This document shows positions 3,263-62,307 of a DNA stretch of 64,000 nt, piece after piece. A model generated the notes under the pieces. That model made no database searches and was not told the DNA's origin. It worked only from the letters and a program-made list of their open reading frames with translations. Made by a program: the position numbers and the translations under genes. The stretch's first letter is position 1; each line of letters starts with the position of its first letter. The DNA comes from Betaproteobacteria bacterium HGW-Betaproteobacteria-16 (GTDB taxonomy: Bacteria; Pseudomonadota; Gammaproteobacteria; Burkholderiales; Burkholderiaceae_C), in contig PHCQ01000005.1 in the NCBI GenBank assembly GCA_002840835.1, positions 62,001 to 126,000 on the forward strand, read 5' to 3'.

Positions 3263-5608
3263 TCACTCCTCTCGTATCGCTGCCCCTCGCAGTCGCAAGG
3301 CATTGCCGATCACCGAAGCAGAACTCAGGCTCATGGCCGCCGCGGCGATCATGGGCGAGAGCAGCCAACCAGTGAAGGGGTACAGCAGGCCGGCGGCCAG
3401 CGGGATGCCCAGTGCGTTGTAGAGGAAGGCAAACGCCAGGTTCTGCTTCATGTTGGCCACCGTGGCCACCGAGAGGGCGCGGGCCGTGGCGATGCCGCGC
3501 AGGTCGCCCTTGACCAGCGTGAGCTGGGCGCTGTTCATGGCCACGTCGGTGCCTGTGCCCATGGCAATGCCCACATCCGCCCGCGCCAGTGCCGGCGCGT
3601 CGTTGATGCCGTCGCCTGCCATGGCCACCACGCGGCCCTCGGCCTGAAGCTTCTCCACCAGTTTGAGTTTGTCTGCCGGCTTCACTTCGCCGTGCACCTC
3701 TTCAATGCCCAGGCGTTGGCCCACCGAGCGCGCCGTGGTCAGGCCGTCGCCAGTGGCCATGACCACGCGGATGTGGGCCTGGCGCAGCGACGCGAGCGCT
3801 TCGGCCGTGGTGGTCTTGATCGGGTCGGAGACGGCCAGCAGGCCGGCCAATGTGTTGTCCACCGCCAGATACATGACACTGGCTCCCTCTGAACGAAGGG
3901 CTTCGGCCTCGGTGGCCATGGGTGATGCATCCACCCCCAGCTGTTGCATCAGCGCCGTGTTACCCAGGGCCAGGTGGGCGGCGCCCACCACACCGCGCAC
4001 ACCGATGCCGGACCCGGAGTCGAACTGTTCGGGCTTGTCGAGCACCATGTCTTGTTGTCTGGCGGCGGCCACGATGGCGGCGGCCAGCGGGTGTTCACTG
4101 CCCTGGTCCAGGCTGGCCGCCAGGCGCAGCACCTCGGCTTCTGAAAAACTGCCATGGCCAATGGCGCGCTCGAACTGCGGTCTTCCTTCGGTGAGCGTGC
4201 CGGTTTTGTCCACGATCAGCGTGTCGACTTTGCGCAGGTTCTCGATGGCGGCGGCATCGCGAAACAGCACGCCGTTGGTGGCGCCCCGCCCGGTGGCCAC
4301 CATGATGGACATGGGTGTGGCCAGGCCCAGTGCGCAAGGGCAGGCGATGATCAGCACGGCCACGGCGTTGATCAGCCCATGAACCCAGCGCGGTTCGGGG
4401 CCGAACAGGCCCCAGCCGAAAAAGGTGAGCAGTGCCGCCGTCACGACCCCCATCACGAAGTAGCCCGCCACCTGGTCGGCCATGCGCTGCATGGGCGCAC
4501 GCGAGCGTTGCGCCATGGCCACCATCTGCACGATCTGCGAGAGCACGGTGGTGGAGCCCACGTGATCCGTCTTCATCACCAGTGCGCCACTGGTGTTGAG
4601 CGTGGCGCCGATCAGCTTGTCGCCGACCCGCTTCGTCACCGGCAGCGGTTCACCCGTGAGCATCGATTCGTCCAGCGCGCTGGCGCCTTCGGTCACCGTG
4701 CCGTCGGTGGGGACCTTCTCGCCAGGGCGCACGCGCAGCAGGTCGCCCACATGCACGTGTGCCAGTGGCACGTCTTCCTCCTGCCCGTCATCCTTGATGC
4801 GCCGCGCGGTTTTGGGCGCCAGGCCCAGCAGGGAACGGATGGCCGCCGACGTCTGCGAGCGCGCCTTGAGTTCCAGCAACTGCCCCAGCAGGGTCAGCGA
4901 GATGATCACCGCAGCCGCTTCAAAATACACCGCCACCCGTCCCATCGATACAAACGACTCGGGAAACACCTGGGGCGCCACCGTGGCCACGGTGCTGTAG
5001 ACAAACGCCGCCCCGGTACCCAGCCCGATGAGGGTCCACATGTTGGGGCTGCGGTTGGCCACCGACTGCGCACCGCGCACAAAAAAGGGCCAGCCCGCCC
5101 ATAACACGATCGGTACTGTGAGAACAAGTTCGATCCAGCTCTGCACCGCCATGTCGAACCAGCCCAGGCCGTGACCGAACATGGCCAGCACGGTGACGAC
5201 CACGGTGAGCGGCAGGGTCCACCAGAAGCGGCGCTGGAAGTCCTTGAGTTCGGGGTTGTCCTGTTCCTCCAGCTCGGGCAGCAGGGGCTCCAGTGACATG
5301 CCGCACTTGGGGCAGTTGCCGGGATGGTCCTGTCGGATCTCCGGGTGCATGGGGCAGGTGTAAACCGTGCCCGCCGCCGCAGGCGCCTGTGCTGGCGCTG
5401 GCGCCGGGTCGAGGTATTGCCGGGGACTCGCCACGAACTTGCCCAGGCATTTCGCGCTGCAGAAATGGAAGGTCCGCCCTTCGTGCACCGTCTGGTGAGG
5501 CGATTGTTCGGTCACCGTCATGCCGCAAACAGGGTCCTTGAGCGTCGCTGGATCGTTCTGATGGGGCGGTGAATGGCCGGCGGGATGCCGGTGTGTTGTC
5601 ATGTCCAT
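3263..5608 (-). CDS. P1B-type heavy-metal ATPase with N-terminal YHS and HMBD domains (copper/silver exporter type)
   Basis: A 781-aa metal-exporting P-type ATPase of the inner membrane. In place of an HMA domain, the N-terminus has a YHS domain (DPVCGMTV ... FCSAKC, about residues 25-65) and a heavy-metal-binding domain (YTCPMHPEI ... [11 protein letters not shown], about 80-110). The core has the ion-site CPC motif C423-P-C425 ([11 protein letters not shown]), the phosphorylated D467 (DKTGTLTEG), TGES-equivalent LTGEPLP and the hinge [11 protein letters not shown]. This layout resembles SilP/CopA-like Cu(I)/Ag(I) ATPases. AAGGAG lies 7 nt before the ATG. It is the last gene of a minus-strand series of metal-related genes starting at 7922. 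Confidence 0.93.
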
Positions 5609-9560: not shown

Positions 9561-11756
9561 ATGAACACCGCGACAGCAACGCTCATCAAGCACCAGTTCC
9601 CCATCGAAGGCATGACTTGCGCGTCCTGCGTCGGCCGCGTTGAAAAGGCCTTGAAGGCCGTGGCCGGCGTGAAGGCCGTCAGCGTCAACCTGGCCACCGA
9701 ACGTGCCACGGTGAATGCCGTCCCATCCACGCTGGCGGCCAGCCTGGTGGCTGCGGTGCAAAAGGCCGGCTACAGCGTGGGCAAAGAGCCCAGCGCTGAC
9801 CACTTGGCAGGGCCCGCCAGAAGCAGGGGTGAGCCTTGGTGGCCGGTGGCGCTGGCCGCCGTGCTGTCTGTGCCCCTGGTGCTGCCCATGATCGCCATGC
9901 TCTTTGGCGCCGACTGGACAATCAATGGCTGGCTGCAGCTCGCGCTGGCCACACCCGTTCAGTTCTGGCTGGGCGCGCGCTTTTACCGCGCAGGCTGGAA
10001 GGCCCTGCGGGCCGGCGCAGGCAACATGGACCTGCTGGTGGCCCTGGGCACCAGTGCAGGCTATGGCCTGAGCGTGTACCTGCTGTTCAAGCACGTCGAC
10101 CATGGCACGCCGCACCTGTACTTCGAAGCCTCGGCAGTGATCATCACGCTGGTGCTGCTGGGCAAGTGGCTGGAGTCGCGCGCCAAGCGCCAGACGGCCG
10201 CCGCCATCGCGGCCCTCAACGCGCTCAAGCCCGAGGTGGCGCGCGTGCGCATGCCCTACGGCGATGTGGACGTGGCGATTGAACAGGTGAAGGCGGGCGA
10301 TCTCGTGGTGGTTCGCCCGGGTGAGCGCATTCCGGTGGACGGCGTGGTCACCATCGGCGCCAGCCAGGTGGACGAGTCGCTCATCACCGGTGAGAGCCTG
10401 CCCGTGGCCAAGCACGCGGGCGACAAGGTCACCGGTGGTGCCGTCAATGCCGAAGGGCTGCTGCTGGTGGAAACCACCGCCGTGGGTGCCGAATCCACGC
10501 TCTCGCGCATCGTGCGCATGGTCGAGTCGGCGCAGGCGAAGAAGGCGCCGATTCAACGCATCGTGGACAAGGTGAGTGCCGTCTTCGTGCCGGTGGTGCT
10601 GCTGATCGCGGCGCTCACCCTGCTGGGCTGGGGGCTGGCCACCGGTGACTGGGAGCAGGCCATCCTCAACGCGGTGGCGGTGCTGGTGATTGCCTGCCCG
10701 TGTGCCCTGGGTCTGGCCACACCCACGGCCATCATGGCCGGCACCGGCGTGGCCGCACGCCAGGGCATTCTGATCAAGGACGCCGAGGCGCTGGAAGTGG
10801 CACACCGCATCCACACCGTGGCGTTTGACAAGACGGGCACGCTCACCGAGGGCAAGCCCACACTGGTGGCCGCCCTTGCCGCACCGGGCCATGAAGACAC
10901 ACTGCTGTCGTGGAGCGCGGCCTTGCAGGCCGGCAGCGAACACCCGCTGGCCCGCGCGGTGATGACGGCAGCAGAGCAGGCCGGCCTGCCGCTGCTCTCA
11001 GCCGCCAAGGTCAGCGCTGTGCCGGGGCGTGGCATGTCGGCCGAGGTGCAGGGGCGTGCGCTGCGACTGGGCAGCCCGCGTTACATGCAGGAACTGGGCG
11101 TGGACACCGCCGCACTGGGCGAAGCCGCGCAACGGCTGGCGAACGAAGGACGCACCGTGTCCTGGCTGGCGGACGTGACGGCATCGCCTGTGCTCGTGGG
11201 CATGCTGGCCTTTGGCGATTCGCCCAAGGCCAGCGCGGCGGCCGCCGTGAAGAGCCTGCAGGCCCTGGGTGTGCGCACGGTGATGGTCACCGGCGACAAC
11301 CTGGGCAGTGCGCTGGCCGTGGGCCGCGCACTGGGCATCGACCATATCGAGGCCGAGGTGCTGCCGGCGGACAAGGCCGCCATCGTGAACCGCCTCAAGG
11401 AAGGAGGCCGCTCGGTGGCCATGGTGGGCGATGGCATCAACGACGCACCGGCCCTGGCGTCGGCCGATGTGGGCATTGCCATGTCCACCGGCACCGACGT
11501 GGCCATGCACGCGGCCGGCATCACGCTCATGCGCGGTGACCCGGCGCTGGTGGCCGACGCGATCGACATCTCGCGCCGCACCTACCGCAAGATCCGCCAG
11601 AACCTGTTCTGGGCCTTTGCCTACAACGTCATTGGCATCCCGCTGGCCGTGGCCGGCCTGCTCAAACCGGTGGTGGCCGGCGCGGCCATGGCACTGAGCA
11701 GCGTGAGTGTGGTGAGCAATGCGCTGCTGCTGCGGGGCTGGCAGCGGCGAGGCTGA
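9561..11756 (+). CDS. copA: Copper-exporting P1B-1 ATPase with N-terminal HMA domain
   Basis: A 731-aa inner-membrane Cu(I) exporter. One HMA domain at the N-terminus (GMTCASC, C20/C23), eight predicted membrane segments, TGES (LITGESLP), transmembrane C379-P-C381 ([11 protein letters not shown]), phosphorylated D423 (DKTGTLTEG), an HP-type motif SEHPLA and the hinge [12 protein letters not shown]. These are the CopA hallmarks, along with the C-terminal [16 protein letters not shown] helix. GGAG lies 8 nt upstream of the ATG. It is transcribed divergently from the CopZ-like gene through two adjacent MerR-type promoters. It differs from the ATPase at 3263, which has YHS/HMBD domains instead of HMA. 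Confidence 0.95.
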
Positions 11757-11836
11757 GGCCCTCAAAGACACCGGGGGGCGCATGGGTGAATCAGCGGGAG
11801 GCCGAACGCACAAGAACGTGGTGGCGGCCACCCGCG

Positions 11837-11868
11837 ATGCACCAGCCTAGGGATGGGCATGCACCAGC
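11837..11868 (+). repeat. Direct repeat ATGCACCAGC, 22-bp spacing
   Basis: ATGCACCAGC occurs at 11837-11846 and again at 11859-11868, two helical turns apart, in the gap between copA and the GntR gene. It could be a tandem operator half-site or coincidence. No other structure was clear in this 226-bp gap apart from the palindrome near 11960. Confidence 0.3.
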
Positions 11869-11950
11869 GGCGGCGTGATGTCGTTGATTTGGCGCAATAG
11901 GTGCTCATTTGCAGTGCGAAATGTCGGTTTTTGGCCTGGCACAGCTTTTG

Positions 11951-11974
11951 CTCAACATGACTTGTCATAACGAG
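11951..11974 (+). promoter_or_regulatory. Candidate operator of the GntR/HutC-family gene
   Basis: ATGACTTGTCAT (11957-11968) is a perfect palindrome (ATGAC-TT-GTCAT) flanked by CTC and GAG (11951-11953, 11972-11974), which also pair. It lies 14 bp before the regulator start, which is where autoregulated GntR-family genes carry their operator. Confidence 0.5.
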
Positions 11975-11982
11975 TTAGAGAA

Positions 11983-12789
11983 ATGAGCAGACGAATGGCC
12001 TCAAACGGTTTGCGTGCAGTTGTCACGAACTTGCCTCTCCCGCGCACGGTGGACGAGATACAGGCGTCCTCGCCGACGCCCCTGTATGAGCAGATCAAGG
12101 CGATCTTGCGCTCGCGTGTGCTCGATGGCACCTACAAGCCGCACGAGCAGTTGCCCTCAGAGAGTGAAATGATGACGGCCTTCAATGTGAGCCGCATCAC
12201 GGTGCGCCAGGCATTGAACGACCTGCAGAACGAAGGCCTGGTGTTCCGCATTCACGGCAAGGGCACCTTCGTGTCCAAGCCCAAGGCCTTTCAGGATCTG
12301 GGCCGGCTGCAAGGCTTTGGTGAAGCCATGCGCAAGATGGGCTATGAGACCTTCGCGCGTGTGGTGTCCATGCGCACGGTGGTGCCATCGGCGCAAGTGC
12401 AGGAGCGGCTGCACCTGAGCAAGCGCGCCAAGGTCACCGAGCTGCAGCGCATCCGCTTCCTCAACCGCGAACCCATCTCGCTCGACGTCACCTATTTGCC
12501 GGCCGACATCGGCGCGCGTCTGGCCAAGGAAGACCTCGCCAGCCGCGACATCTTCGTGATCCTGGAAAACGACTACGGCATGTCGCTGGGGCATGCCGAT
12601 CTGCAGATCGGCTCCACGCTGGCCGATGAACGACTGGCCGGTCAACTGCAGGTGGAAGAGGGCTCGCCGGTGCTGGTGATCGAGCGCACCACGCACACCA
12701 CCGACGGCTCCCCCATCGACTACGAACACCTCTATTACCGCGGCGACGCCTTTCAGTACAAGGTGCGCGTCGATCGCGCGCCCATCTGA
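11983..12789 (+). CDS. GntR-family regulator, HutC subfamily (UTRA effector domain)
   Basis: A 268-aa transcription factor. The N-terminal winged HTH (about residues 30-100: PLYEQIKAILRSRVLDGTYKP, LPSESEMMTAFNVSRITVRQAL) is followed by a UTRA ligand domain (about 115-260, ending YRGDAFQYKVRVDR). HutC-type regulators are usually repressors released by a pathway metabolite. It starts the long plus-strand run that continues to 21878, 53 bp before the AprA-like gene, so it probably controls that operon. An alternative start is Met5. Confidence 0.9.
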   Translation: MSRRMASNGLRAVVTNLPLPRTVDEIQASSPTPLYEQIKAILRSRVLDGTYKPHEQLPSESEMMTAFNVSRITVRQALNDLQNEGLVFRIHGKGTFVSKPKAFQDLGRLQGFGEAMRKMGYETFARVVSMRTVVPSAQVQERLHLSKRAKVTELQRIRFLNREPISLDVTYLPADIGARLAKEDLASRDIFVILENDYGMSLGHADLQIGSTLADERLAGQLQVEEGSPVLVIERTTHTTDGSPIDYEHLYYRGDAFQYKVRVDRAPI

Positions 12790-12842
12790 AGCCTGTCTGT
12801 CTGCACCACCTTCTCAGCCTTGAACAACCCGGAAAGGTCAAC

Positions 12843-14579
12843 ATGAAAACCATCGAACTTGAGTACGACATTGTGGTGATCGGTGGCGGCACCGGCGGCC
12901 CCATGGCCGCGGTGAAAGCCAAGGAAAAAAATCCCAAGCTGCGCGTCCTGCTGCTGGACAAGGCCAACGTGAAACGCAGCGGCGCCATCTCCATGGGCAT
13001 GGATGGCCTGAACAACGCCGTAATCCCCGGTCACGCCACGCCCGAGCAGTACACCAAGGAAATCACGGTGGCCAACGACGGCATCGTGGACCAGAAGGGG
13101 GTGTACGCCTACGCATCCAACAGCTTCGCCATGATCGAAGAGCTGGACAAGTGGGGCATCAAGTTCGAGAAGGACGAGACCGGCGACTACGCCGTGCGCA
13201 AGGTGCATCACATCGGCAGCTACGTGCTGCCCATGCCCGAAGGCCACCACATGAAGCGCGTGCTCTACCGCCAGCTAAAAAAAGCGCGCGTGGAAATCAC
13301 CAACCGCGTGGTGGCCACCCGGTTGCTCACCGGCGCCGGGGGTGAGATCACGGGGGTGATGGGCTTTGACTGCCGCACCGCCGACTTCTACGTCATCAAG
13401 GCCAAGGCCGTGGTGATCTGCACCGGCGCCGCCGGGCGCCTCGGGCTGCCGGCTTCCGGCTACATGTTTGGCACGTACGAGAACCCGACCAACACCGGCG
13501 AGGGTCATGTGATGGCATACCACGCCGGTGCCGAGCTCACCAACCTCGAGTGCTTCCAGATCAACCCGCTGATCAAGGACTACAACGGCCCGGCCTGTGC
13601 CTACGTGACCGGACCGTTCGGCGGCTACACCTCGAACAACGCGGGTGAGCGCTTCATCGAATGCGACTACTGGAGCGGCCAGATGATGATGGAGTTCTTC
13701 AACGAACTCGAAGGCGGCAAAGGCCCGGTGTTCCTAAAGCTCGATCACCTGGCGGAAGAAACCATCAGCGAGATCGAGCACATCCTGCACACCAACGAGC
13801 GGCCCAGCCGTGGCCGCTTCCACGAAGGGCGCGGCACCGACTACCGCAAGGCCATGATCGAGATGCACATCTCCGAGATCGGCTTCTGCAGCGGTCACAG
13901 CGCCTCCGGCATCTGGACCAATGAGCGTGGCGAGTGCTCCATTCCCGGCCTCTACGCGGCGGGCGACTGCGCCAGCATTCCACACAACTACATGCTGGGC
14001 GCGTTCGTCTACGGCAAGTTCTGCGGCGAAAACGCCGCCGACTACGTGGCCGGTTCCAGCGATCCACGCGTCGATCAGGACCGGGTGCAGATTGAGCGTG
14101 CGCGCGTCATGGCACCGCTGTCGCGCAGCGAAGGGCCCACCCCGTTTCAGGTCGAATACAAGACCCGCCGCGTCGTCAACGACTACCTGCAGCCGCCCAA
14201 GGTCACCCGCAAGATGGAGATCGGGCTGCAGCGCTTCGACGAGATCCGCGAAGACCTGGACCACATGGTGGCCGAGGACCCGCACGAGCTCATGCGCGCC
14301 ATGGAGGCCCACACGATCCGCGACTGCGCCGAACTGGCCGCGCGTTCGTCGCTGTTCCGCACCGAAAGCCGCTGGGGCCTGTACCACCTGTGTGTGGACC
14401 ACCCGGAAAAGGACGACGAAAACTGGTTCTGCCACACCAACGTGACCAGCGACGCCAACGGCAACGCCAGGTTCCGCAAACGCGAGGTGGAGCCCTATGT
14501 GGTCGAGCTGAACGACCAGGAAAAGGCCGCCTACCAACGCCTGCGCGTGGCCAGCCCGGCCACCGCCAAAGCCGCCTGA
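12843..14579 (+). CDS. FAD-dependent fumarate reductase/AprA-like oxidoreductase, alpha subunit
   Basis: A 578-aa flavoprotein of the succinate dehydrogenase/fumarate reductase/L-aspartate oxidase superfamily. The N-terminal Rossmann motif is DIVVIGGGTGGPMAA. A late FAD-binding segment reads IPGLYAAGDCASIPHNYMLG, and the C-terminal helical domain (about 440-560) resembles AprA and SdhA. The stretch GLNNAVIPGHATPEQYTKE and the immediately following double-cluster ferredoxin make it most like the alpha subunit of dissimilatory APS reductase, though it is shorter (AprA is usually above 600 aa) and may act on a different substrate. AAAGG precedes the ATG. It is the probable catalytic subunit of the operon's enzyme. 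Assignment to AprA proper is not supported by catalytic-residue checks I could make by eye. Confidence 0.8.
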   Translation: MKTIELEYDIVVIGGGTGGPMAAVKAKEKNPKLRVLLLDKANVKRSGAISMGMDGLNNAVIPGHATPEQYTKEITVANDGIVDQKGVYAYASNSFAMIEELDKWGIKFEKDETGDYAVRKVHHIGSYVLPMPEGHHMKRVLYRQLKKARVEITNRVVATRLLTGAGGEITGVMGFDCRTADFYVIKAKAVVICTGAAGRLGLPASGYMFGTYENPTNTGEGHVMAYHAGAELTNLECFQINPLIKDYNGPACAYVTGPFGGYTSNNAGERFIECDYWSGQMMMEFFNELEGGKGPVFLKLDHLAEETISEIEHILHTNERPSRGRFHEGRGTDYRKAMIEMHISEIGFCSGHSASGIWTNERGECSIPGLYAAGDCASIPHNYMLGAFVYGKFCGENAADYVAGSSDPRVDQDRVQIERARVMAPLSRSEGPTPFQVEYKTRRVVNDYLQPPKVTRKMEIGLQRFDEIREDLDHMVAEDPHELMRAMEAHTIRDCAELAARSSLFRTESRWGLYHLCVDHPEKDDENWFCHTNVTSDANGNARFRKREVEPYVVELNDQEKAAYQRLRVASPATAKAA

Positions 14580-14608
14580 ACCGCATCACCCACCGAAAGG
14601 CCATCTCC

Positions 14609-14842
14609 ATGACCATCACCACCACACGAACCCAGGCGCCCGTCGTCGTTGACGACGACAAGTGCATCGCCGACAAGGGTTGCACCGTCTGCGTCGATGT
14701 CTGCCCGCTCGATGTGCTTGCCATCGATCTGGTGAAGAACAAGGCATTCATGAAGTTCGACGAATGCTGGTACTGCATGCCCTGCGAGAAGGACTGCCCC
14801 ACTGGCGCTGTGCACGTGAACATCCCCTACCTGGTGAGGTGA
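14609..14842 (+). CDS. AprB-like ferredoxin with two [4Fe-4S] clusters
   Basis: A 77-aa iron-sulfur protein with two four-Cys sets: C19, C25, C28, C32 (CTVCVDVCPLDVL) and C53, C56, C59, C63 (CWYCMPCEKDCPTGAV). The second motif and the order are those of AprB, the beta subunit of APS reductase, lacking AprB's C-terminal tail. It should pass electrons to or from the FAD of the protein encoded just upstream. It starts 29 bp after that gene. I took the ATG at 14609; the frame runs further upstream without similarity. Confidence 0.85.
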   Translation: MTITTTRTQAPVVVDDDKCIADKGCTVCVDVCPLDVLAIDLVKNKAFMKFDECWYCMPCEKDCPTGAVHVNIPYLVR

Positions 14843-14844
14843 GC

Positions 14845-15822
14845 ATGAGCCAGATCCTTCACCAAAGCATCCGCCAGCGCCTGCAGGACAGCGACCCGGG
14901 CGTGCGCCGCGTCGCCGTGCTCGAACTCCCCTACACCGACGAAGAAGACGACACCGCCCCGCTGCTCATCGAAGCGCTGGGCGACAGCAGCCCGCTGGTG
15001 CGCCTGGAGGCCGCCAAGGCGCTCGAAGGCATTGAAGAGCCGGAAGTGCTCAACGCCCTGGTACCCTTGCTCAAGGACAGCGACGCCGACGTGCGCGACG
15101 CCGTGGCCTACACCCTTGCCGAGCTGAAAGAGCCGGCATCGGCCGGCCCCATCCTGCCGTACCTGGTGGATGCCGACCCACGCGTGAAAGCGGCGGCCCT
15201 GCATGCCGTGAAGGCATTGCGGGTGGACGAGGCCTTCGAGCCTGCCCTGCAGGCACTGGGCGATGCGGACCCCGCAGTGCGGCGCGAAGCGGTGGGCGTG
15301 CTGGGCTACCTCAAGCGGCCCCAGGCCATTGCGGATCTCACCCAGATCGCCGCCCACGATGCCGAGCCCGAAGTGCGGCGGGTGGCGGTGGGGGCATTGG
15401 GCTATGCCGGCGAATCCACCGCCGTGAGCGTGCACCCGGCGCTCAGCCGCGCCCTGGTCGACACCGCCTGGCAGGTTCGTGAAGAAGCCGCCACCACCTT
15501 CGCCAAAACCCGTTCCGCGCTGGGCGTGCCAGACCTCATCCGCGCCATGGACGACGCCTACTGGCAGGTGCGCGTGAAGGCTGCGCGCAGCCTGGGCAAG
15601 CTCAAGGCGGCCGCTGCGGTGCCGGTGCTGGCAGAGGCCACCACCCACGAGGTGAGCAACTTGCGCAAGGAAGCGGTGATCGCACTCGGCGAGATCGGTG
15701 ACACCCGCGCCATCGCCCCGTTGGAGCGCGCGCTGAAAGACAGCGACCCCGATGTGCGCAAGCTGGCCAAGCTCGCGCTCACGTCGATCCAGATGCACGG
15801 CAGCGCGGGAGGTGCGTCATGA
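14845..15822 (+). CDS. HEAT-repeat (PBS-lyase-like) protein
   Basis: A 325-aa protein made almost wholly of about ten 31-residue HEAT repeats with the recurring pattern D-x-DPxVRxxAxxALG (for example LGDSSPLVRLEAAKAL, LGDADPAVRREAVGVL, LKDSDPDVRKLAKLAL). Such solenoids act as docking or assembly platforms; the PBS-lyase-type subgroup is known from phycobilisome chromophorylation and from uncharacterised redox operons. No membrane segment or signal is present. The start is 2 nt after the ferredoxin stop and its own stop overlaps the next ATG (ATGA), so it belongs to the operon. I infer a scaffold or maturation role for the AprAB-like enzyme. Confidence 0.85.
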   Translation: MSQILHQSIRQRLQDSDPGVRRVAVLELPYTDEEDDTAPLLIEALGDSSPLVRLEAAKALEGIEEPEVLNALVPLLKDSDADVRDAVAYTLAELKEPASAGPILPYLVDADPRVKAAALHAVKALRVDEAFEPALQALGDADPAVRREAVGVLGYLKRPQAIADLTQIAAHDAEPEVRRVAVGALGYAGESTAVSVHPALSRALVDTAWQVREEAATTFAKTRSALGVPDLIRAMDDAYWQVRVKAARSLGKLKAAAAVPVLAEATTHEVSNLRKEAVIALGEIGDTRAIAPLERALKDSDPDVRKLAKLALTSIQMHGSAGGAS

Positions 15823-16148
15823 CCCACGTCGTCACCGAAGCCTGTATCAGCTGCAAGTACACCGACTGTGTCTCGGTGTGTCCGGTGGACTGCTTTCACG
15901 AGGGGCCGAATTTTCTCGTGATCGACCCCGAGGTGTGCATCGACTGCGGTGTGTGCATTCCCGAGTGCCCGGTGGAGGCGATTCTGGAAGAGAAGGATTT
16001 GAGCCCCGACCAGCTGGAGTACGTCGCGCTGAACGCCGCGCTCGCACCCCGGTGGCCCGTGATCACCACCACACAAGAGCCCCTGCCCGACGCGGCGTTA
16101 TGGGCCGAGCGCAAAGACAAGCGCAGTCTGCTGAGCGAAACCGCGTGA
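15819..16148 (+). CDS. 7Fe ferredoxin (FdxA-type, [3Fe-4S]/[4Fe-4S])
   Basis: A 109-aa ferredoxin of the Azotobacter FdI type: CISCKYTDCVSVCPVDCF near the N-terminus, then CIDCGVCIPECPVEAI, then the typical C-terminal tail ending in ALWAERKD. It is an electron carrier in the cytoplasm, commonly partnered by an Fpr-type NADPH reductase, and one is encoded downstream at 19957. It starts inside the stop of the HEAT gene (ATGA). Its position between enzyme and transporter genes suggests it serves this operon specifically. Confidence 0.92.
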   Translation: MTHVVTEACISCKYTDCVSVCPVDCFHEGPNFLVIDPEVCIDCGVCIPECPVEAILEEKDLSPDQLEYVALNAALAPRWPVITTTQEPLPDAALWAERKDKRSLLSETA

Positions 16149-16249
16149 GCTCACGTTTGCTGGCCCGCAAATAGCTTGCAGGACAGCACACCAGGCCACG
16201 CCCGGATCCCGATTGATTGATGGATTGTTCAACTCACCTGGAGATTCTC

Positions 16250-17737
16250 ATGACTGCTAAGACACTGACCCCACGCCCTCCCTGGTTCAGCCGCTTCGTG
16301 CGCCCCGCGATGGGCGCGTTGCTGGGCCTGGCCCTGTTGCCATCTGTGTCGCTGGCACAGGCCAAGAAGGAGGTGACGATCGGCATCGGCACCCAGAACA
16401 CGACCACCAACACCGTCACCGGTGGCATCGTGCTCAAGGAACTCAAGCTGCTGGAAAAGCACCTGCCCAAAACCGGCAAGTACGCCAACATCACCTGGAA
16501 GCTGGACTGGCAGAACTTCACCTCCGGTCCGCCGGTCACCAATGGCATGGTGGCCAACAAGCTGCAGATCGGGATGATGGGCGACTACCCGCTGCTGGTG
16601 AACGGCGCCACCGGCCAGCAGAGCCGGGGCAACGAATCCCTGCTGGTTGCCATCATTGCCTACAACGCTTTTGGTTCGGGCAATGGAGTGGTGGTGCACA
16701 AGGACAGCCCCTACTACGAACTGGCCGACCTCAAGGGCAAGACCGTGTCCGTGCCTTTTGGCTCTGCCGCCCACGGCATGATGCTGCAGGCCATGCAGGA
16801 ACGCGGCTGGCCCAACGACTACTGGAACCTGGTGAGCCAGAGCCCCGAGGTGGGTACCACCAACCTGCAGGAAAAGAAGATCGATGCGCACGGCGACTTT
16901 GTTCCCTTCGCCGACCTGCTGCCCTACCGCGGCTTCGCGCGCAAGATCTTTGACGGCGCGCAGACCAAGGTGCCCACCTTTCACGGTGTGGTGGTTCGCA
17001 AGGACTTTGCCGATGCATACCCCGAAGCCGTGGTCGCCTACATCAAGGCGCTGATGGAGGCCAACGACTGGGTGCGCAAGAACCCGAGCATGGCGATGCA
17101 GAAGGTGGAGGAGTGGACCAAGATCGAAAAGGAAGTGGGCTACATGTTCCTTGGCCCCAACGGCATCCACACGCTGGACCCGACCATCAAGCCCCGCTGG
17201 ATCGAGACCATCAAGCTCGCACACGGCGTGCTGTCCAAGCTGGGCCGTGTGAAGGAGTTCGATGTCAACGCCTGGGTCAACGAGACCTATGTACGCCAGG
17301 CTTTCAAGGAGCGCGGCGAAGACTACGACGCGCAGAAGCAGACCTTGGCCAACTACGACATCACGGGCCGCGACCCCATCTGCAACCGCATGGTGAGCAA
17401 CCCCAAGGACGCGGGTGAGATCTGGCTGGAAGGCGCGGGCCTGGTGCCTGTGAGTTCACCGGCCTGCCTGCTGGCGGGGGTTCGGCAGTACCAGACCGAA
17501 GGCAAGAAGGTCTCGGTGGCCTACTTGTTTGACAAGGCGCTGGGCATCAAGCTGTTTGCCGACAAGGCGTTCTATTCGGTCAACCTCAGCAAGCCCAAAG
17601 CCCCTGTGGTGGTGCCCTTTCTGCTGAAGAAGGACGCCGAGGCCTTTGCTGCGAAGAACGGCGGCAAGCTGGCCACGTTTGATGAAGCCCTGGCGCTGGC
17701 GGTGCCCGCCAGCGATCTGGCCATGATCGGGAAATGA
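16250..17737 (+). CDS. ABC transporter substrate-binding protein (TauA/SsuA-like) fused to a NosL-like domain
   Basis: A 495-aa periplasmic protein. After a signal peptide (ending SLAQA, about residue 35) comes a TauA/SsuA/NrtA-type binding domain (about 40-345: QIGMMGDYPLLV, DLKGKTVSVPFGSAAHGMML). The last ~120 residues are not part of that family. They contain DPICNRMVSNPKDAG (C378/M381), SVNLSKPK and DAEAFAAKNGGKLATFDEAL, which resemble NosL, the Cu(I)-binding accessory lipoprotein of nitrous oxide reductase. I chose the ATG at 16250 (GGAG 6 nt upstream) over 16217. The substrate is unknown; sulfonates, sulfate esters, nitrate or other small oxyanions are typical of the family. Confidence 0.82.
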   Translation: MTAKTLTPRPPWFSRFVRPAMGALLGLALLPSVSLAQAKKEVTIGIGTQNTTTNTVTGGIVLKELKLLEKHLPKTGKYANITWKLDWQNFTSGPPVTNGMVANKLQIGMMGDYPLLVNGATGQQSRGNESLLVAIIAYNAFGSGNGVVVHKDSPYYELADLKGKTVSVPFGSAAHGMMLQAMQERGWPNDYWNLVSQSPEVGTTNLQEKKIDAHGDFVPFADLLPYRGFARKIFDGAQTKVPTFHGVVVRKDFADAYPEAVVAYIKALMEANDWVRKNPSMAMQKVEEWTKIEKEVGYMFLGPNGIHTLDPTIKPRWIETIKLAHGVLSKLGRVKEFDVNAWVNETYVRQAFKERGEDYDAQKQTLANYDITGRDPICNRMVSNPKDAGEIWLEGAGLVPVSSPACLLAGVRQYQTEGKKVSVAYLFDKALGIKLFADKAFYSVNLSKPKAPVVVPFLLKKDAEAFAAKNGGKLATFDEALALAVPASDLAMIGK

Positions 17738-17740
17738 ACC

Positions 17741-18763
17741 ATGCGCGCCGCCTCCTTGCTTGACGTGAGCCGTGACCGAGTGGGTTACGTGCCTGACAAC
17801 CCCAACCCGCTCGCTCACGCCGACGAGCCGCTGGAGGCGCCGGCCGCCAGGGCCACGGTGACGCTGCTGAACAGCGCGGAGGGGCAGGGCACGTCCCGGG
17901 GCACCGTGGTCACCGAACCCGCTGCCGTGGGCTCGTCCGGATCCCCTGCAGGCCTGCGCCTTCTGGGTGCCTGGGTGCGGGACCAGATGACCGGCTGGAT
18001 CATGGCCGTGATCTCCATCGGCAGTGTGTTGCTGGCCTGGCACCTAGCCACGCACTACCGGCTCGACTTCTATGTGCGCTTCGGCAACATACCCAGCCCG
18101 GCAGAGGTGTTCGCCAAGGTGATCGAGGTCAACCAGTCGACCACCTTCGTCACCAACATCGGCATCAGCGTGCGCCGCATTCTCTATGGCTTTGCCATTG
18201 CGGCGGTGCTGGGCATCGGCCTGGGCCTGCTGATTGGCCGCTACCGCTGGTTCCGCCAGATCAGCATGCCGGCGCTGGAGGTGTTCCGCCCCATCCCGGC
18301 CATTGCCTGGGTGCCCATGTCCATCATGCTGTGGCCGAGCAACGAGGTCAGCATCGTGTTCATCACCTTCCTTGGTGCCTTCTTCCCCATTTTGCTCAAC
18401 AGCATCCATGGGGTGGAAGCGATCGATCCGGTGCTGCTGCGCGCCGCCCGCTCGCTAGGGGCACGCGAACCCACGCTGCTGTTTGAGGTGGTGCTGCCAG
18501 CCGCCTTGCCGCACATCTTCACCGGTCTGGCCGTTGGCATGGGTGTGGCCTGGGTGTCGTTGATCGCGGCAGAAATGATCTCGGGGCAGTTCGGCATCGG
18601 CTACTTCACGTGGGAGGCGTATTCGCTCATCTCCTATCCGGAAATCGCACTGGGCATGATCACCATCGGCATCCTGGGCTTGCTGTGCAGCAGCGCCATT
18701 CGCCAGGCCGCTCGCCTCGCCATGCCCTGGCAGTCATCGGCTTCACCGGGAGAGCGCTCATGA
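17741..18763 (+). CDS. ABC transporter permease (TauC/SsuC-like)
   Basis: A 340-aa inner-membrane subunit with about six membrane helices and the EAA loop that docks the ATPase (EAIDPVLLRAARSLGAREPT, residues about 227-246). The family (nitrate/sulfonate/taurine permeases) is usually about 260 aa. The extra N-terminal ~75 residues are polar, Ala/Pro-rich and probably cytoplasmic. The ATG at 17741 follows the upstream stop by 3 nt, and the stop overlaps the ATPase ATG (ATGA at 18760). Confidence 0.9.
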   Translation: MRAASLLDVSRDRVGYVPDNPNPLAHADEPLEAPAARATVTLLNSAEGQGTSRGTVVTEPAAVGSSGSPAGLRLLGAWVRDQMTGWIMAVISIGSVLLAWHLATHYRLDFYVRFGNIPSPAEVFAKVIEVNQSTTFVTNIGISVRRILYGFAIAAVLGIGLGLLIGRYRWFRQISMPALEVFRPIPAIAWVPMSIMLWPSNEVSIVFITFLGAFFPILLNSIHGVEAIDPVLLRAARSLGAREPTLLFEVVLPAALPHIFTGLAVGMGVAWVSLIAAEMISGQFGIGYFTWEAYSLISYPEIALGMITIGILGLLCSSAIRQAARLAMPWQSSASPGERS

Positions 18764-19644
18764 GCGCAGTGATGTCAAAGCCCGAAGCGGCGGTTCGCGG
18801 CCTCGTCGAAATGCAGGACGTGTCCATCCAGTTCAAGGTCAAGGGTGCGGTGGTCCAGGCGGTCGATTCGGTCTCCATCCACGTGCAGCCCGGTGAGTTC
18901 GTCTCGCTCATCGGTCCTTCAGGGTGCGGCAAATCGAGCCTGCTCAACGTGGCGGCGGGCTTTGTGCAGCCCAGTGCGGGCGAGGCCCGGCTCGACGGCG
19001 TGCGCATCGAAGAGCCTGGTGCCGACCGTGGCGTTGTGTTTCAGCAGTACTCGCTGTTTCCCTGGATGACCGTGCGCAAGAACGTCGAATTCGGCATGAA
19101 GATCCAGGGCGTGTCGCCCAGCGCACGCGAAACCCGCGCACGCACCTTGCTCGGGCTGGCGGGCCTGCTGCACTTCGAGAACCACTACCCGGACCAGCTC
19201 TCGGGTGGCATGAAGCAGCGCGTGGGCATTGTGCGGGCGCTCTCCACCAGCCCGCAGGTGCTGTTGATGGACGAACCCTTCGGTGCACTGGACTCGCAGA
19301 CGCGGGTGGTGATGCAGGAGATCCTCACCAACATGTGGCAACGCCTGCGCATCTCCGTGCTGTTCATCACCCACGACATCGACGAAGCGATCTTTCTGTC
19401 GGACCGCATCTACGTGATGACGGCGCGGCCGGGCCGCGTGAAGGCAGAGATTGTGGTGCCCTTGCCCCGGCCGCGCACGCCTGAGATGACGTCCACGCCC
19501 GAATTCATCGCCCTGGTGCAGACCATCAAGGGGCTCATCCGCGAAGAGAGCCTGGCCGCCATGGGGGGCGACCTCATGGAAGGCGGCCTGGCCGGCCTCA
19601 GCGTGGAGATGGGGCCCCAGGGCGTGGGGGGATCGATCGAATGA
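18760..19644 (+). CDS. ABC transporter ATP-binding protein (TauB/SsuB-like)
   Basis: A 294-aa ATPase with Walker A GPSGCGKSSLL, Q-loop FQQYSLFPW, signature LSGGMKQRV, Walker B VLLMDEPFGALD and switch His in ITHDIDEAI. It energises the importer formed with the two preceding products. A C-terminal extension of about 30 residues is rich in Gly and Met. I chose the ATG at 18760 because it overlaps the permease stop; its own stop overlaps the DUF971 start. Confidence 0.93.
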   Translation: MSAVMSKPEAAVRGLVEMQDVSIQFKVKGAVVQAVDSVSIHVQPGEFVSLIGPSGCGKSSLLNVAAGFVQPSAGEARLDGVRIEEPGADRGVVFQQYSLFPWMTVRKNVEFGMKIQGVSPSARETRARTLLGLAGLLHFENHYPDQLSGGMKQRVGIVRALSTSPQVLLMDEPFGALDSQTRVVMQEILTNMWQRLRISVLFITHDIDEAIFLSDRIYVMTARPGRVKAEIVVPLPRPRTPEMTSTPEFIALVQTIKGLIREESLAAMGGDLMEGGLAGLSVEMGPQGVGGSIE

Positions 19645-19955
19645 GCGCAGACGGCGTGCACCCGGTGGACATCGTCCACCACCAGGCATCGGGCCAGCTC
19701 GATATCGGCTGGAGCGACGGCCTGCAGGCCTCCATGAACGCGCACGACCTGCGCTGCGCATGCCGTTGCGCCGCGTGCGTGAAGCTGCGGCGCGATGGCA
19801 TCGGTCCCACGTCGCCCGCCACCACCCGCATGACCGAGCTGCACCCGGTGGGTGAGTTTGGCCTGCAGCTGTGTTTTGACGATGGTCACGACCGCGGCAT
19901 CTATCCCTGGCCCTATCTGCGCGAACTCTCATCCACGCTTGCACTGGAGTCCTGA
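19641..19955 (+). CDS. DUF971 (gamma-butyrobetaine hydroxylase N-terminal-like) protein
   Basis: A 104-aa stand-alone DUF971 domain: the Cys-rich part ALRCACRCAACVKLR-like (actual LRCACRCAACVKLR, about 35-48) and the hallmark DGHDRGIYPWPYLREL near the C-terminus. DUF971 is also found at the end of the Fe-S carrier HCF101/Mrp and in bacterial 'iron-sulfur-associated' operons, so a role in cluster assembly or transfer for the three Fe-S proteins here is plausible. This is inference. The start overlaps the ATPase stop, and the next gene follows after 1 nt. Confidence 0.85.
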   Translation: MSADGVHPVDIVHHQASGQLDIGWSDGLQASMNAHDLRCACRCAACVKLRRDGIGPTSPATTRMTELHPVGEFGLQLCFDDGHDRGIYPWPYLRELSSTLALES

Positions 19956-19956
19956 C

Positions 19957-20730
19957 ATGAGCAATCTGTTCGAAGCCCGCGTGCTGTCGGTCCACCACTG
20001 GACCGACCGCCTGTTTTCCTTCACAACCACCCGCGACCCGGGCTTTCGCTACCAGAGCGGCCAGTTCGCCATGATCGGCCTCATGGTCGACGGCAGGCCC
20101 TTGCTGCGTGCATACAGCATGGTGAGCCCGCATTACGAAGAGACGCTTGAGTTCCTGAGCATCAAGGTACCCGATGGACCCCTCACTTCGCGGCTGCAGC
20201 ACATCCAGGTGGGTGACACGGTGCTGGTGGGGCGCAAGGCCTCCGGCACATTGCTCACACAGAACCTCACGCCCGGGCGCCACCTCTACCTGCTGTCCAC
20301 CGGCACGGGTCTGGCGCCGTTCATGAGCGTGATCCGCGACCCCGACGTGTACGAGCTGTTCGACAAGATCGTGCTGGTGCACGGCTGCCGGCAGGTGAAT
20401 GAGCTGGCTTACGAGCGCCTGATCACCCAGGACCTGCCCCGGAGCGAATGGTTTGGCGAACAGGCGCGGGCCAAGCTGCTGTACTACCCCACGGTCACGC
20501 GCGAGGCGTTCCGCCACCAGGGACGCATTCCCACCCTGCTGGAAACCGGGCGCCTCCCGCACGACCTGGGTCTGCCGCCATTGAGCACATCAGACGACCG
20601 TTTCATGCTCTGCGGCAGCCCGGAAATGCTGCGCGACACGCGCGACCTGCTCGACAAGCTGGGCCTGCGAGAAGGCAACATGAGCCAACCCGGGCAGTAC
20701 GTGATCGAACGCGCCTTTGTGGAGAAATGA
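19957..20730 (+). CDS. fpr: Ferredoxin--NADP+ reductase, bacterial Fpr type
   Basis: A 257-aa FAD enzyme linking NADPH and ferredoxin. Visible: FAD motif RAYSMVSP, NADP-site STGTGLAPFMS, the MLCGSPEML motif, and the bacterial C-terminus YVIERAFVEK. It would exchange electrons with the 7Fe ferredoxin encoded at 15819. It is the tenth gene of the plus-strand run starting at 11983. The ATG at 19957 follows the DUF971 stop by 1 nt; an open frame further upstream lacks similarity. A second, housekeeping fpr probably exists elsewhere in the genome, but I cannot see that here. Confidence 0.92.
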   Translation: MSNLFEARVLSVHHWTDRLFSFTTTRDPGFRYQSGQFAMIGLMVDGRPLLRAYSMVSPHYEETLEFLSIKVPDGPLTSRLQHIQVGDTVLVGRKASGTLLTQNLTPGRHLYLLSTGTGLAPFMSVIRDPDVYELFDKIVLVHGCRQVNELAYERLITQDLPRSEWFGEQARAKLLYYPTVTREAFRHQGRIPTLLETGRLPHDLGLPPLSTSDDRFMLCGSPEMLRDTRDLLDKLGLREGNMSQPGQYVIERAFVEK

Positions 20731-20735
20731 AACAC

Positions 20736-20832
20736 CCCCGCGGCCCTTCGCGCCACCCCCTCAAGGGGGCGGCACTGGCCGTCCGGCAGAGCCGGCCCGG
20801 CGGTGCCCCTGGATGGCACCGCTTCATGCCGC
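20736..20832 (-). repeat. Dispersed multi-hairpin repeat, copy B
   Basis: Inverted near-identical copy of 8115-8202, lying between the fpr stop and the YeiH-family gene. It contains the C/G-run hairpin CCCCCTCAAGGGGG and the CCGGCAGAGCCGG hairpin. Because its frame is open, an automatic start call could place the YeiH start at 20727, inside or before this repeat. Confidence 0.82.
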
Positions 20833-20852
20833 AGGGGTGGCGTTCCGGCAGC

Positions 20853-21878
20853 ATGGAAATCTGGCAGGCGCGGTCCGGCCACCTGGTGAGGCTGTGGCCC
20901 GGTGTGGCGCTGTGCGCCGTGATTGCGCTGGCCGCCGTCTTCGTCTCGGGCATGCACGGTGGCCCGCCCATGCTGTACGGCCTGTTCATGGGCGCGGCCT
21001 TCCACTACCAGAGCCACGACCCGCGAACGGCACCTGGCGTGGACGCGTGCATGCGCGTGGTTCTGCGTCTGGGCATTGGTCTGCTGGGTGCGCGCATCAC
21101 GGTCGGGCAGATCGAAAGCCTCGGCTGGGCCACCGGCCTCATCGTGGCGCTGGCGGTGCTCAGCACCGTGTTGTGTGGTGTGCTGGGCGCGCGCTGGCTG
21201 CGACTGCCGTGGAGCATGGGCCTGCTCGCAGGCGGCGCCACCGCCATTTGTGGTGCCGCCGCTGCGCTGGCCATTGCGGCCGTGCTGCCGGCAGATGAAC
21301 ACCGCGAGCGCAACACCCTGAGCGCCGTGGTGCTGGCGACCGTGCTGTCCACCGTGGCCATGCTGCTCTACCCGCTGGTGGCCAGCGCTCTGGATATGCC
21401 GCCCCTGTGGGCGGGTGTCTTTCTGGGCGGCACCATCCACGACGTGGCGCAGGTGGTGGTGGCCGGCTATTCGCTGGGTCAGGAAACCGGGGACACGGCG
21501 TCCATCGTCAAGCTGCTTCGGGTGAGCCTGCTGGTGGTGGTGGTCATGGCGATTTCGGTGGCGGTTCGCAAACTTCCTGCGCAGACCTCAGCTGCCCCGC
21601 CTACGCGCAAGTTCAAGTTGCCGGTGCCGGGCTTTCTGGTGCTGTTCGTGGGCCTGGTGGGCGTTCATTCGGCGGGCTGGGTGCCCACCGGTCTGCAACT
21701 GAGTCTGGGCGAAGGCTCGCGTGCGTGTCTGATGGTGGGTGTGACCGCGCTGGGCATGAAGACCTCGCTGGGCGGTCTGGCCAGAACCGGCTGGCGCCCG
21801 TCGGTGCTGATGCTCGGCACCAGCCTCTGGATCGCTTTGTTCGTGTTGGTGGCCATTGAGGTGGCGATGCAACGCTAA
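20853..21878 (+). CDS. YeiH/UPF0324 family putative sulfate/sulfite exporter
   Basis: A 341-aa integral membrane protein with about ten helices, of the YeiH/UPF0324 family (conserved LRLGIGLLGARIT, GATAICGAAAALA, GGTIHDVAQVVVAGYSLG). Members are often encoded in taurine and sulfonate degradation clusters and are thought to export sulfite or sulfate. That context supports a sulfur-containing substrate for this operon. An ATG at 20727 overlaps the fpr stop, but the first ~35 codons from there are repeat sequence, so I place the start at 20853 (20826 is also possible). Confidence 0.82.
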   Translation: MEIWQARSGHLVRLWPGVALCAVIALAAVFVSGMHGGPPMLYGLFMGAAFHYQSHDPRTAPGVDACMRVVLRLGIGLLGARITVGQIESLGWATGLIVALAVLSTVLCGVLGARWLRLPWSMGLLAGGATAICGAAAALAIAAVLPADEHRERNTLSAVVLATVLSTVAMLLYPLVASALDMPPLWAGVFLGGTIHDVAQVVVAGYSLGQETGDTASIVKLLRVSLLVVVVMAISVAVRKLPAQTSAAPPTRKFKLPVPGFLVLFVGLVGVHSAGWVPTGLQLSLGEGSRACLMVGVTALGMKTSLGGLARTGWRPSVLMLGTSLWIALFVLVAIEVAMQR

Positions 21879-22017
21879 ACACGCCTGTGTTGAAGGGCGG
21901 TTCAAGCCTGACATGCCGTGTCCAGCAACGAGCATGGCACGCAAATCTCAAGGCCTGGGCTACGATCCCACTGCCTGCGCCCAGACTTGAATTCACCCCG
22001 TTTCACAGGAGCCCCAC

Positions 22018-22449
22018 GTGCCACTCATCTGGTCCTATTCCACCGACGGTCTCGACTGGAATGAGCTTGCGGCGCTTTACGACGCAGCGCCACTCGGCAG
22101 CAAAAGTCCGAGCGGCTTGAAGACCGCGTTCACGAACAGCATGTTCAAGTGCTTCGTCTACGACGAACAACAGCTGGTCGGCGTCGGGCGGGCGCTGGCT
22201 GATGGCGTCGACTGCTCCTACATCTGTGACGTAGCGCTGCTGCCCAGCCATCAAGGCCTGGGTCTCGGCAAACAGATCGTGGCCAAGCTGGTGGAACTGT
22301 CCCGTGGCCACAGGAAGATCATTCTCTACTCGGTGCCCGGCAAAGAGTCGTTCTACAAGAAGCTGGGGTTCAAACGCATGAGCACAGCCATGGCAATCTT
22401 CGAAGATCAGGCAGCGGCCCAGGCGCTCGGGTACGTCAACGAGACTTGA
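22018..22449 (+). CDS. GNAT-family N-acetyltransferase
   Basis: A 143-aa acetyltransferase with the acetyl-CoA-binding motif A (VALLPSHQGLGLGKQIVAKL, Q-x-x-G-x-G) and motif B region (FYKKLGFKRM). The start is GTG at 22018 with AGGAG 6 nt upstream. The acceptor is unknown; the protein looks like a small-molecule acetylase of the GNAT fold. It stands alone between the YeiH gene and the convergent SerA-type gene. Confidence 0.85.
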   Translation: MPLIWSYSTDGLDWNELAALYDAAPLGSKSPSGLKTAFTNSMFKCFVYDEQQLVGVGRALADGVDCSYICDVALLPSHQGLGLGKQIVAKLVELSRGHRKIILYSVPGKESFYKKLGFKRMSTAMAIFEDQAAAQALGYVNET

Positions 22450-61605: not shown

Positions 61606-62307
61606 ATGATGCACAACCCCATTCCGCCGATCACCGAAGACGACATCGCCGACTATCTGGCCAACACGCCAGACTTCTTCGAGCGCCATGCCAGTCTGCT
61701 GGCGGCGGTGCAACTAACCAGCCCGCACGGCCATCGCGCCGTGAGCCTGCAGGAACGCCAGGCCGAAATGCTGCGGGAAAAGATCCGAGGCCTTGAGCTC
61801 AAGGCGGCCGAAATGATCCGTCACGGTCAGGAGAACACGACGATTGCCGACAAGCTGCAACGCTGGACGCGGGAGCTGCTGCTCACCCGCGAGTCGCGCG
61901 ATCTGCCCGAGGTCATTTCGCGCGAGATTGCAGCGCAGTTTCTGGTGCCGCAGGTGGCGATCAAGGTATGGGGCGTGTCACCCGAATTCGAGCAGGAAGC
62001 GTTTGCGCAAGGCGCCAGTGACGATGTGAAGGCGTTTGCCTCTTCACTGACGCTGCCCTACTGCGGCGCCAACCCCGGTCTGGAGGCGGCGGAGTGGTTG
62101 TTTGACCCGTCGACGGCGGCTTCGCTGGCGCTGATCCCGTTGCGCGCGGGCATGGCGCCTCAGGCCTTTGGCCTGCTGGTGCTGGCGTCGCCCGACGCGC
62201 AGCGTTTTGCCTCCGACATGGGCACCGACTTCCTGGAGCGCATCGGTGAACTGACCAGCGCGGCGCTCTCCAGATTGCGCCCGGTGGTCGAGCCAGAGCT
62301 GGATTGA
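61606..62307 (+). CDS. DUF484 (GAF-like) protein
   Basis: A 233-aa protein of the DUF484 family: ITEDDIADYLANTPDFFERH at the N-terminus, the coiled helix LQERQAEMLREKIRGLELKA, then a GAF-like domain. The family is of unknown function and is conserved between dapF and xerC in gammaproteobacteria and betaproteobacteria. The stop overlaps or abuts the xerC start. Confidence 0.9.
   Translation: MMHNPIPPITEDDIADYLANTPDFFERHASLLAAVQLTSPHGHRAVSLQERQAEMLREKIRGLELKAAEMIRHGQENTTIADKLQRWTRELLLTRESRDLPEVISREIAAQFLVPQVAIKVWGVSPEFEQEAFAQGASDDVKAFASSLTLPYCGANPGLEAAEWLFDPSTAASLALIPLRAGMAPQAFGLLVLASPDAQRFASDMGTDFLERIGELTSAALSRLRPVVEPELD

Follow-up and report, generated by a model that had tools for sequence, protein, structure and literature searches.

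The 64,000-nucleotide stretch of DNA analysed here (the window; positions 62,001 to 126,000 of contig PHCQ01000005.1, assembly GCA_002840835.1, of Betaproteobacteria bacterium HGW-Betaproteobacteria-16) carries an operon of eleven genes, all on the plus strand and within 11983-21878 (Table 1), that combines a regulator, an AsfA-like flavoprotein with its AsfB-like ferredoxin subunit, an ABC importer, electron-transfer proteins and a YeiH-type membrane protein. Judged by sequence, the operon probably represents an asf-like sulfonate system in a conserved form that is self-contained. The genes lie where a preliminary description had placed them, and the family labels given there were upheld by Pfam and NCBIfam, with the Fpr-type protein (NF008178, 160.8 bits, cut-off 390) and the YeiH-type protein (TIGR00698, 121.1 vs 232.6 bits; PF03601 exceeded with 193.7 vs 24.5 bits) staying below the NCBIfam cut-offs. 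The same description had most genes coupled by ATGA overlaps, which is incorrect: four-base overlaps of this kind are found at four of the ten junctions (HEAT/FdxA, permease/ATPase, ATPase/DUF971 and Fpr/YeiH), and the other six comprise three within 3 bases and three gaps of 53, 29 and 101 bases.

Table 1. Features of the asf-like operon (positions in the window; scores in bits)
Feature	Position	Strand	Evidence or remark
Putative operator of the GntR regulator, 16-base inverted repeat	11960..11975	+	7 bases before the gntR start
GntR/HutC-type (UTRA) transcriptional regulator	11983..12789	+	PF00392 83.6, PF07702 130.8
AsfA-like flavoprotein (FAD_binding_2 + Succ_DH_flav_C), APS/PAPS-reductase alpha relative	12843..14579	+	NF006131 (PRK08275) 1066.9 vs cut-off 587
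AsfB-like 2x[4Fe-4S] ferredoxin subunit, AprB relative	14609..14842 (start ATG 14609)	+	two 4-Cys motifs + Trp
HEAT-repeat protein	14845..15822	+	PF13646 230.8
FdxA-type ferredoxin	15819..16148	+	NF045490 155.7 vs cut-off 135
Sulfonate-type binding protein (NMT1/SsuA-type) with NosL-like C-terminal domain	16250..17737	+	
ABC importer permease	17741..18763	+	PF00528 85.9
ABC importer ATPase	18760..19644	+	PF00005 110
DUF971 (GBBH-like N-terminal domain) protein	19641..19955	+	PF06155 75.1 vs 22.8
Fpr-like ferredoxin--NADP reductase	19957..20730 (start ATG 19957)	+	PF00175 and PF00970 over cut-off
YeiH/PF03601-type membrane protein, possible sulfite/sulfate exporter	20727..21878 (true start maybe further in)	+	PF03601

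Of 398 sampled Pseudomonadota genomes, 21 encode the flavoprotein, as do 13 of the 200 genomes sampled from the window's family; the source genome is part of both counts. We compared 126 loci (the window and 125 others, near-copies included; stretches of 9.8 to 25.7 kb, outside of which genes counted as missing may lie), in which the genes around the relatives were labelled by BLAST against 71 reference proteins; the scan of genome contigs kept the best 80 of 591 matches and leans to relatives of the Cupriavidus query. The full set of eleven genes is found in six further loci, each from another genome of the window's family (L160, L161, L164, L165, L166 and L167; L165 is counted although its HEAT open reading frame sorts before the asfB-like gene), and a Variovorax plasmid (L014) has ten of the genes, without YeiH. 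Since the same set recurs in this way, it is not a chance assembly. The eight flavoproteins concerned form one clade ("type II"; support of 99 in the Shimodaira-Hasegawa-like approximate likelihood ratio test) in a tree built from 72 of the 126 sequences by a quick method without bootstrap, with 54 of the 80 loci L017-L096 left out. YeiH is present in seven of these eight loci, and in all eight a GntR regulator precedes the flavoprotein gene.

The other layouts, like type II assigned by script (doubtful for L010, which has FdxA, and for L044, where no GntR was found), include a compact "type I" (GntR, flavoprotein, ferredoxin subunit, binding protein, permease, ATPase, HEAT and DUF971), which prevails among the fetched Pseudomonas and Burkholderiaceae loci, and an "alpha" type with DUF971 or Fpr ahead of the flavoprotein and mostly a CRP-type regulator. 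Types I and II occur together in three genomes (G487, G544 and G584). PF06155 corresponds to the label DUF971 in annotated relatives, and two cyanobacterial plasmids (L012 and L015) have Mrp/NBP35 annotated within the cluster. The NCBIfam model PRK13800 (NF010374) spans the flavoprotein and, further along, the HEAT protein in a single model; the HEAT protein of the window matches its C-terminal part (98.5 bits) and the length of the actinobacterial protein (L013), 893 aa, fits the fused model. On the mobilizable 65-kb plasmid pTcM1 of Acidithiobacillus caldus (L010) a GntR-flavoprotein-ferredoxin-HEAT-FdxA block is followed by a 3.5-kb gene for an FAD-dependent oxidoreductase.

The putative operator is conserved as well: of 111 loci, 87 have the same inverted repeat (at most four mismatches) close to the start of gntR, compared to 46 among 2220 stretches drawn at random from these loci, a descriptive comparison in that the consensus was drawn from those loci and the random stretches can include the real site. 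Across the source genome, the degenerate pattern is matched with 0-1 mismatches at the site before gntR and nowhere else; when only the window is considered, its two pattern matches are reached in 8 of 100 shuffles. When up to two mismatches are allowed, the genome has 18 sites for the pattern and 20 for its reversed control, so that only the site before gntR is counted and no wider regulon is claimed. A promoter scan of 11700-22100 yielded no sigma-70-like site, and of the 11 terminator-like sites in that range (shuffles 6.0, sd 2.6) none follows the last gene. Among the 126 loci, the nearest labelled regulator in the 1.5 kb that precede the flavoprotein gene is of the GntR class in 102, CRP in 3 and LysR in one, and is lacking in 20. 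The LysR case concerns a Pseudanabaena galeata plasmid (L012, 9676-11676, minus strand), where a regulator with a C-terminal domain homologous to the operon's binding protein (2e-47) adjoins the flavoprotein gene and is divergent from it. The operator and this fusion provide independent routes to the ligand.

When a profile of the flavoprotein family was compared with the PDB, the nearest solved relatives were the alpha subunit of 3'-phosphoadenosine 5'-phosphosulfate (PAPS) reductase of Methanothermococcus (8a8o, 5.1e-81) and AprA of adenosine 5'-phosphosulfate (APS) reductase (2fja, 4.4e-59), with succinate dehydrogenase trailing (7.7e-38). The curated cut-offs for AprAB are not reached (TIGR02061, 163.1 vs 641.75; TIGR02060, 37.8 vs 135.65) and neither does the flavoprotein reach those for SdhA/FrdA (168.9 vs 567.3 for TIGR01812; 131.1 vs 932.7), so that by these cut-offs it counts as neither an APS nor a fumarate reductase. 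In APS reductase, Asn-A74 and His-A398 contact the sulfate oxygens, Arg-A265 and Trp-A234 do so via water; the Arg may in addition bind the phosphate and the ribose, and electrons are relayed by Trp-B48 (PMC2211403). Gln145 was called conserved in APS reductases, and the methanogen PAPS reductase was described as an AprAB-type enzyme that serves assimilation (PMC10322725); an attack of N5 of flavin adenine dinucleotide (FAD) on the substrate sulfur is the chemistry proposed for both enzymes (PMC10322725, PMC2211403).

The comparison with AprA residues, made on sequence alignments, had a divided outcome. The places of Asn74 and His398 are occupied by Asn and His in 126/126 loci, and in just as many the ferredoxin subunit has two 4-Cys motifs, the second of them with a Trp behind its first Cys; this Trp aligns with the Trp-B48 place in the match to AprB (3gyx_B, 1.1e-9). 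The Asn and His kept are those that APS reductase has at N5 of the flavin. Arg265, invariant in that enzyme, and Trp234 are replaced by Leu and Tyr, respectively, in every locus, and the Gln145 place aligns with Val. Asn74 was read from the 2fja alignment and Trp-B48 from that with 3gyx_B, and the His398 pairing was deduced through the 8a8o alignment, since the 2fja alignment as printed does not extend over that stretch. The mapping rests on printed HMMER alignments and a MAFFT alignment of the loci because the predicted structure of the AsfA-like protein was poor (mean predicted local distance difference test score 59, with residues 196-290 and 292-356 below 50; the 50 sequences aligned for it were 71-75% identical to the query) and was not used. 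The pattern of residues suggests that the catalytic end was kept and the nucleotide-binding end swapped for hydrophobic residues, as would be apt for a leaving group that is not a nucleotide and is perhaps aromatic.

For the binding protein, SsuA and TauA rank first among the fold matches of the predicted model; its score remains below the SsuA cut-off (TIGR01728, 124.0 vs 163.5 bits). The best NCBIfam models for the permease (SaoP, 150.0 vs 295; NtrB, 146.2 vs 209.05; TauC and SsuC behind) and the ATPase (SaoA, 268.5 vs 360; TauB, 244.7 vs 357) are likewise all below cut-off. The binding protein has an extra NosL-like C-terminal domain (20.1 bits, under Pfam's 24), which is also found in L160, L164, L166, L014, L009, L128 and L131; the fold matches listed include no NosL structure, which says little since they barely cover that part of the model. 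A Cys pair in this domain was observed in 8/8 type II, 9/11 alpha and 0/74 type I binding proteins. The window also encodes two CopA-type P-type ATPases that share 45% identity, at 3263-5608 on the minus strand and at 9561-11756 on the plus strand; a copper link was rejected, as in the stretches of the other 125 loci a CopA-like open reading frame (E<=1e-20) was found only in L044, at 10 kb distance.

Several neighbours of the cluster in relatives are related to sulfur. The cluster of P. taiwanensis (L070) has a taurine dioxygenase gene downstream and, on its upstream side, genes for a Cys/Met pyridoxal phosphate enzyme, a MetQ-type lipoprotein, D-cysteine desulfhydrase and a cystine importer; in Pseudanabaena, YeiH and TauE adjoin the cluster, and in Nostoc metX, metY and YeeE/YedE are found 8-11 kb downstream. 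The source genome has seven PF01077 (sulfite/nitrite reductase) matches, one of which is a dsrA-type dissimilatory sulfite reductase gene on contig C142 (518.8 bits, cut-off 392.85). After the operon's own flavoprotein, the best match of NF006131 in this genome is SdhA; no search was aimed at canonical AprA.

The gene content agrees well with published descriptions of the asfRABC cluster, which comprises a reductase (AsfA), a ferredoxin (AsfB), a substrate-binding protein, an ABC transporter and a regulator, and whose asfA mutants lost the use of aromatic sulfonates and kept that of aliphatic ones (PMC4267179). The AsfA/AsfB pair of C. metallidurans (Rmet_4334/5) was called a reductase-ferredoxin (PMC2864759), and asfA, described as an established marker gene for soil bacteria that mobilise aromatic sulfonates, was reported from Variovorax, Polaromonas, Cupriavidus, Burkholderia, Pseudomonas, Rhodococcus and others (PMC9694294). 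In the window, too, the AsfA-like reductase is followed by the AsfB-like ferredoxin and is accompanied by a binding protein and an ABC transporter. The opinion in the preliminary description that no pathway with this gene set had been described was thus probably too strong, although the gene set and the families it listed are real. A literature search under annotation names gave no paper uniting three of the six names, and in publications on dimethyl sulfide (DMS) in Acinetobacter, a fluorotelomer sulfonate in Gordonia and sulfolane in Rhodoferax the terms used yielded nothing on these genes. We call the operon asf-like and not asf because the regulator class differs and the likeness was set by descriptions only.

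In the literature, asf is paired with the monooxygenase SsuD. No match to SsuD (TIGR03565) at E<=1e-3 was found in the source genome (listed completeness 100, contamination 6.26, 232 contigs). Only two luciferase-type domains (PF00296) are present in it, one of them in an MsnO8-type protein and one (TIGR04020, on contig C161) inside a protein of the non-ribosomal peptide synthetase type, together with one TauD-family match (PF02668); other oxygenases were not searched. Type II is the only layout in four genomes (the source genome, G426, G547 and G586), of which G426 alone has SsuD, with no match at E<=1e-20 in G547 and G586. SsuD exceeds its cut-off in 18/18 type I genomes (irregular layouts L155, L157 and L168 included; three of the genomes also have type II). 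In genomes limited to type II or alpha the share is 9/15, counting L129 and L137, in which no gene received the Fpr label; G200, one of the other six, has a match below cut-off. The difference between layouts has a Fisher p of 0.0045, uncorrected for kinship. Together with the lack of SsuD in three of the four type II-only genomes, it makes the main new argument that types with their own FdxA and Fpr may work without this enzyme, though the genomes are few.

We consider it nearly an even chance (about 0.48) that the operon is an asf-like, self-contained system for the acquisition of sulfonate sulfur, with sulfite set free from the imported sulfonate by the AprAB-like pair itself. The importer, of the SsuA/TauA class, would bring in a sulfonate that is most likely aromatic or otherwise bulky. 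The flavoprotein and the small 2x[4Fe-4S] protein would form an AprAB-like complex, which electrons from reduced nicotinamide adenine dinucleotide phosphate (NADPH) could reach by way of Fpr and FdxA; within it the two clusters and then the conserved Trp would hand them on to FAD, whose N5 would attack the sulfonate sulfur with release of sulfite, as the conserved residues suggest. Sulfite may then go to the cell's enzymes of the sulfite/nitrite reductase family, the surplus leaving via the YeiH-type protein. The GntR protein, acting at the palindrome before its own gene, would be a dedicated local switch, and the HEAT and DUF971 proteins probably serve assembly or iron-sulfur maturation. We favour this explanation because the eleven-gene set recurs in seven loci that form one clade with L014 and agrees with asfRABC as reviewed, because the nearest solved relatives are PAPS reductase alpha and AprA with the Asn74, His398 and Trp-B48 places kept throughout, because the predicted fold of the binding protein appears nearest to SsuA/TauA, because the source genome, G547 and G586 are without an SsuD match, and because of the sulfur neighbours in relatives and the LysR-binding-protein fusion beside the Pseudanabaena flavoprotein gene. 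That the pair would be a ferredoxin-driven, oxygen-independent sulfonate-cleaving reductase with the FAD-N5 chemistry of APS reductase, that type II operons would be complete, and that asf would encode a separate class of C-S (or S-O) cleaving enzymes and not an electron helper of SsuD, is a further-reaching proposal, which we put forward tentatively.

Several observations weigh against direct cleavage. With Arg265 and Trp234 replaced, AprA-like catalysis is not assured, and the poor AsfA model means that no pocket is visible. Desulfonation of arylsulfonates in P. putida reportedly yields phenols by monooxygenation and requires SsuD. The Sao models rank first, ahead of those of the Tau system, for both permease and ATPase; these transporter names lead to a review of the selenoproteome (PMC13188914). 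Electrons at the level of NADPH may be weak for a reductive C-S cleavage. Moreover, SsuD is over cut-off in 17 of the 21 flavoprotein-bearing genomes of the phylum sample, compared to 67 of the 398 in the whole sample, and in 10 of 12 further flavoprotein-bearing genomes of the family, a general co-occurrence that fits cooperation between the two.

Such cooperation would agree with the published view that AsfA and AsfB are only a reductase and a ferredoxin that feed a monooxygenase (SsuD or other), so that the flavoprotein never touches the sulfonate. It is stated in PMC4267179, where Asf is described as an electron supply for oxygenation (a proposal that this review cites to 1999), and in PMC2864759, and the presence of SsuD in all type I genomes is in line with it; nevertheless we consider it somewhat unlikely, given a source genome with no SsuD match and few candidate oxygenases among the two families searched, the lower share of SsuD in genomes with type II or alpha only, and the fact that an electron carrier need not keep the catalytic Asn and His of APS reductase. 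The same architecture could also import another sulfur substrate (a sulfate ester, sulfamate, thiosulfate or other oxyanion) and reduce it to sulfite, as would suit the AprAB-like pair equally; the first rank of SsuA and TauA for the binding protein and, if the operon is asf, the arylsulfonate phenotype make this unlikely. An assimilatory APS or PAPS reductase would be in line with the best PDB relative, itself an assimilatory AprAB-type enzyme (PMC10322725), but it is highly improbable in view of the score below the AprA cut-off, the loss of Arg265, the Val at the Gln145 place and the fact that APS is made inside the cell, where a sulfonate-class importer is unneeded. The least probable candidate by our estimate is an organic-acid enzyme like fumarate reductase or succinate dehydrogenase, to which the NCBIfam name of NF006131 and the shared FAD_binding_2 superfamily point: the scores are far under the SdhA/FrdA cut-offs, the partner subunit is AprB-like, and the presumed places of FrdA Arg390 and His232 hold Met and Asn in 126/126 loci.

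As type II operons occur where no SsuD match was found, they allow the hypotheses of an electron helper and of direct cleavage to be told apart, and AsfAB with FdxA and Fpr makes a ready expression system for testing both. Should AsfAB cleave sulfonates itself, it would be a new enzyme class in the sulfur cycle, which may bear on sulfonated pollutants.

Compared to known systems, the pair resembles AprAB and the methanogen PAPS reductase (8a8o) in sequence family, two-cluster beta subunit, Trp relay and the Asn74 and His398 places, and differs from them by the Leu and Tyr for Arg265 and Trp234 and by the size of AsfB (77 aa, AprB chains 150-166 aa). The flavoprotein belongs with PRK08275/NF006131 by its score, whereas the NCBI name of that model, fumarate reductase/succinate dehydrogenase, is not backed by the residues. 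With SsuEADCB and TauABCD the operon shares the importer class and a probable role in starvation, but it has no SsuD- or TauD-type oxygenase. The good match is with asf (asfRABC of Pseudomonas putida S-313 and AsfAB of Cupriavidus metallidurans), both in described gene content and in host genera, which overlap in Variovorax, Cupriavidus, Burkholderia and Pseudomonas, a likeness drawn from published descriptions; the regulator in print is of the LysR class (AsfR), in contrast to the GntR/UTRA regulator found here, and the operon in the window adds FdxA, Fpr and YeiH in a genome without an SsuD match.

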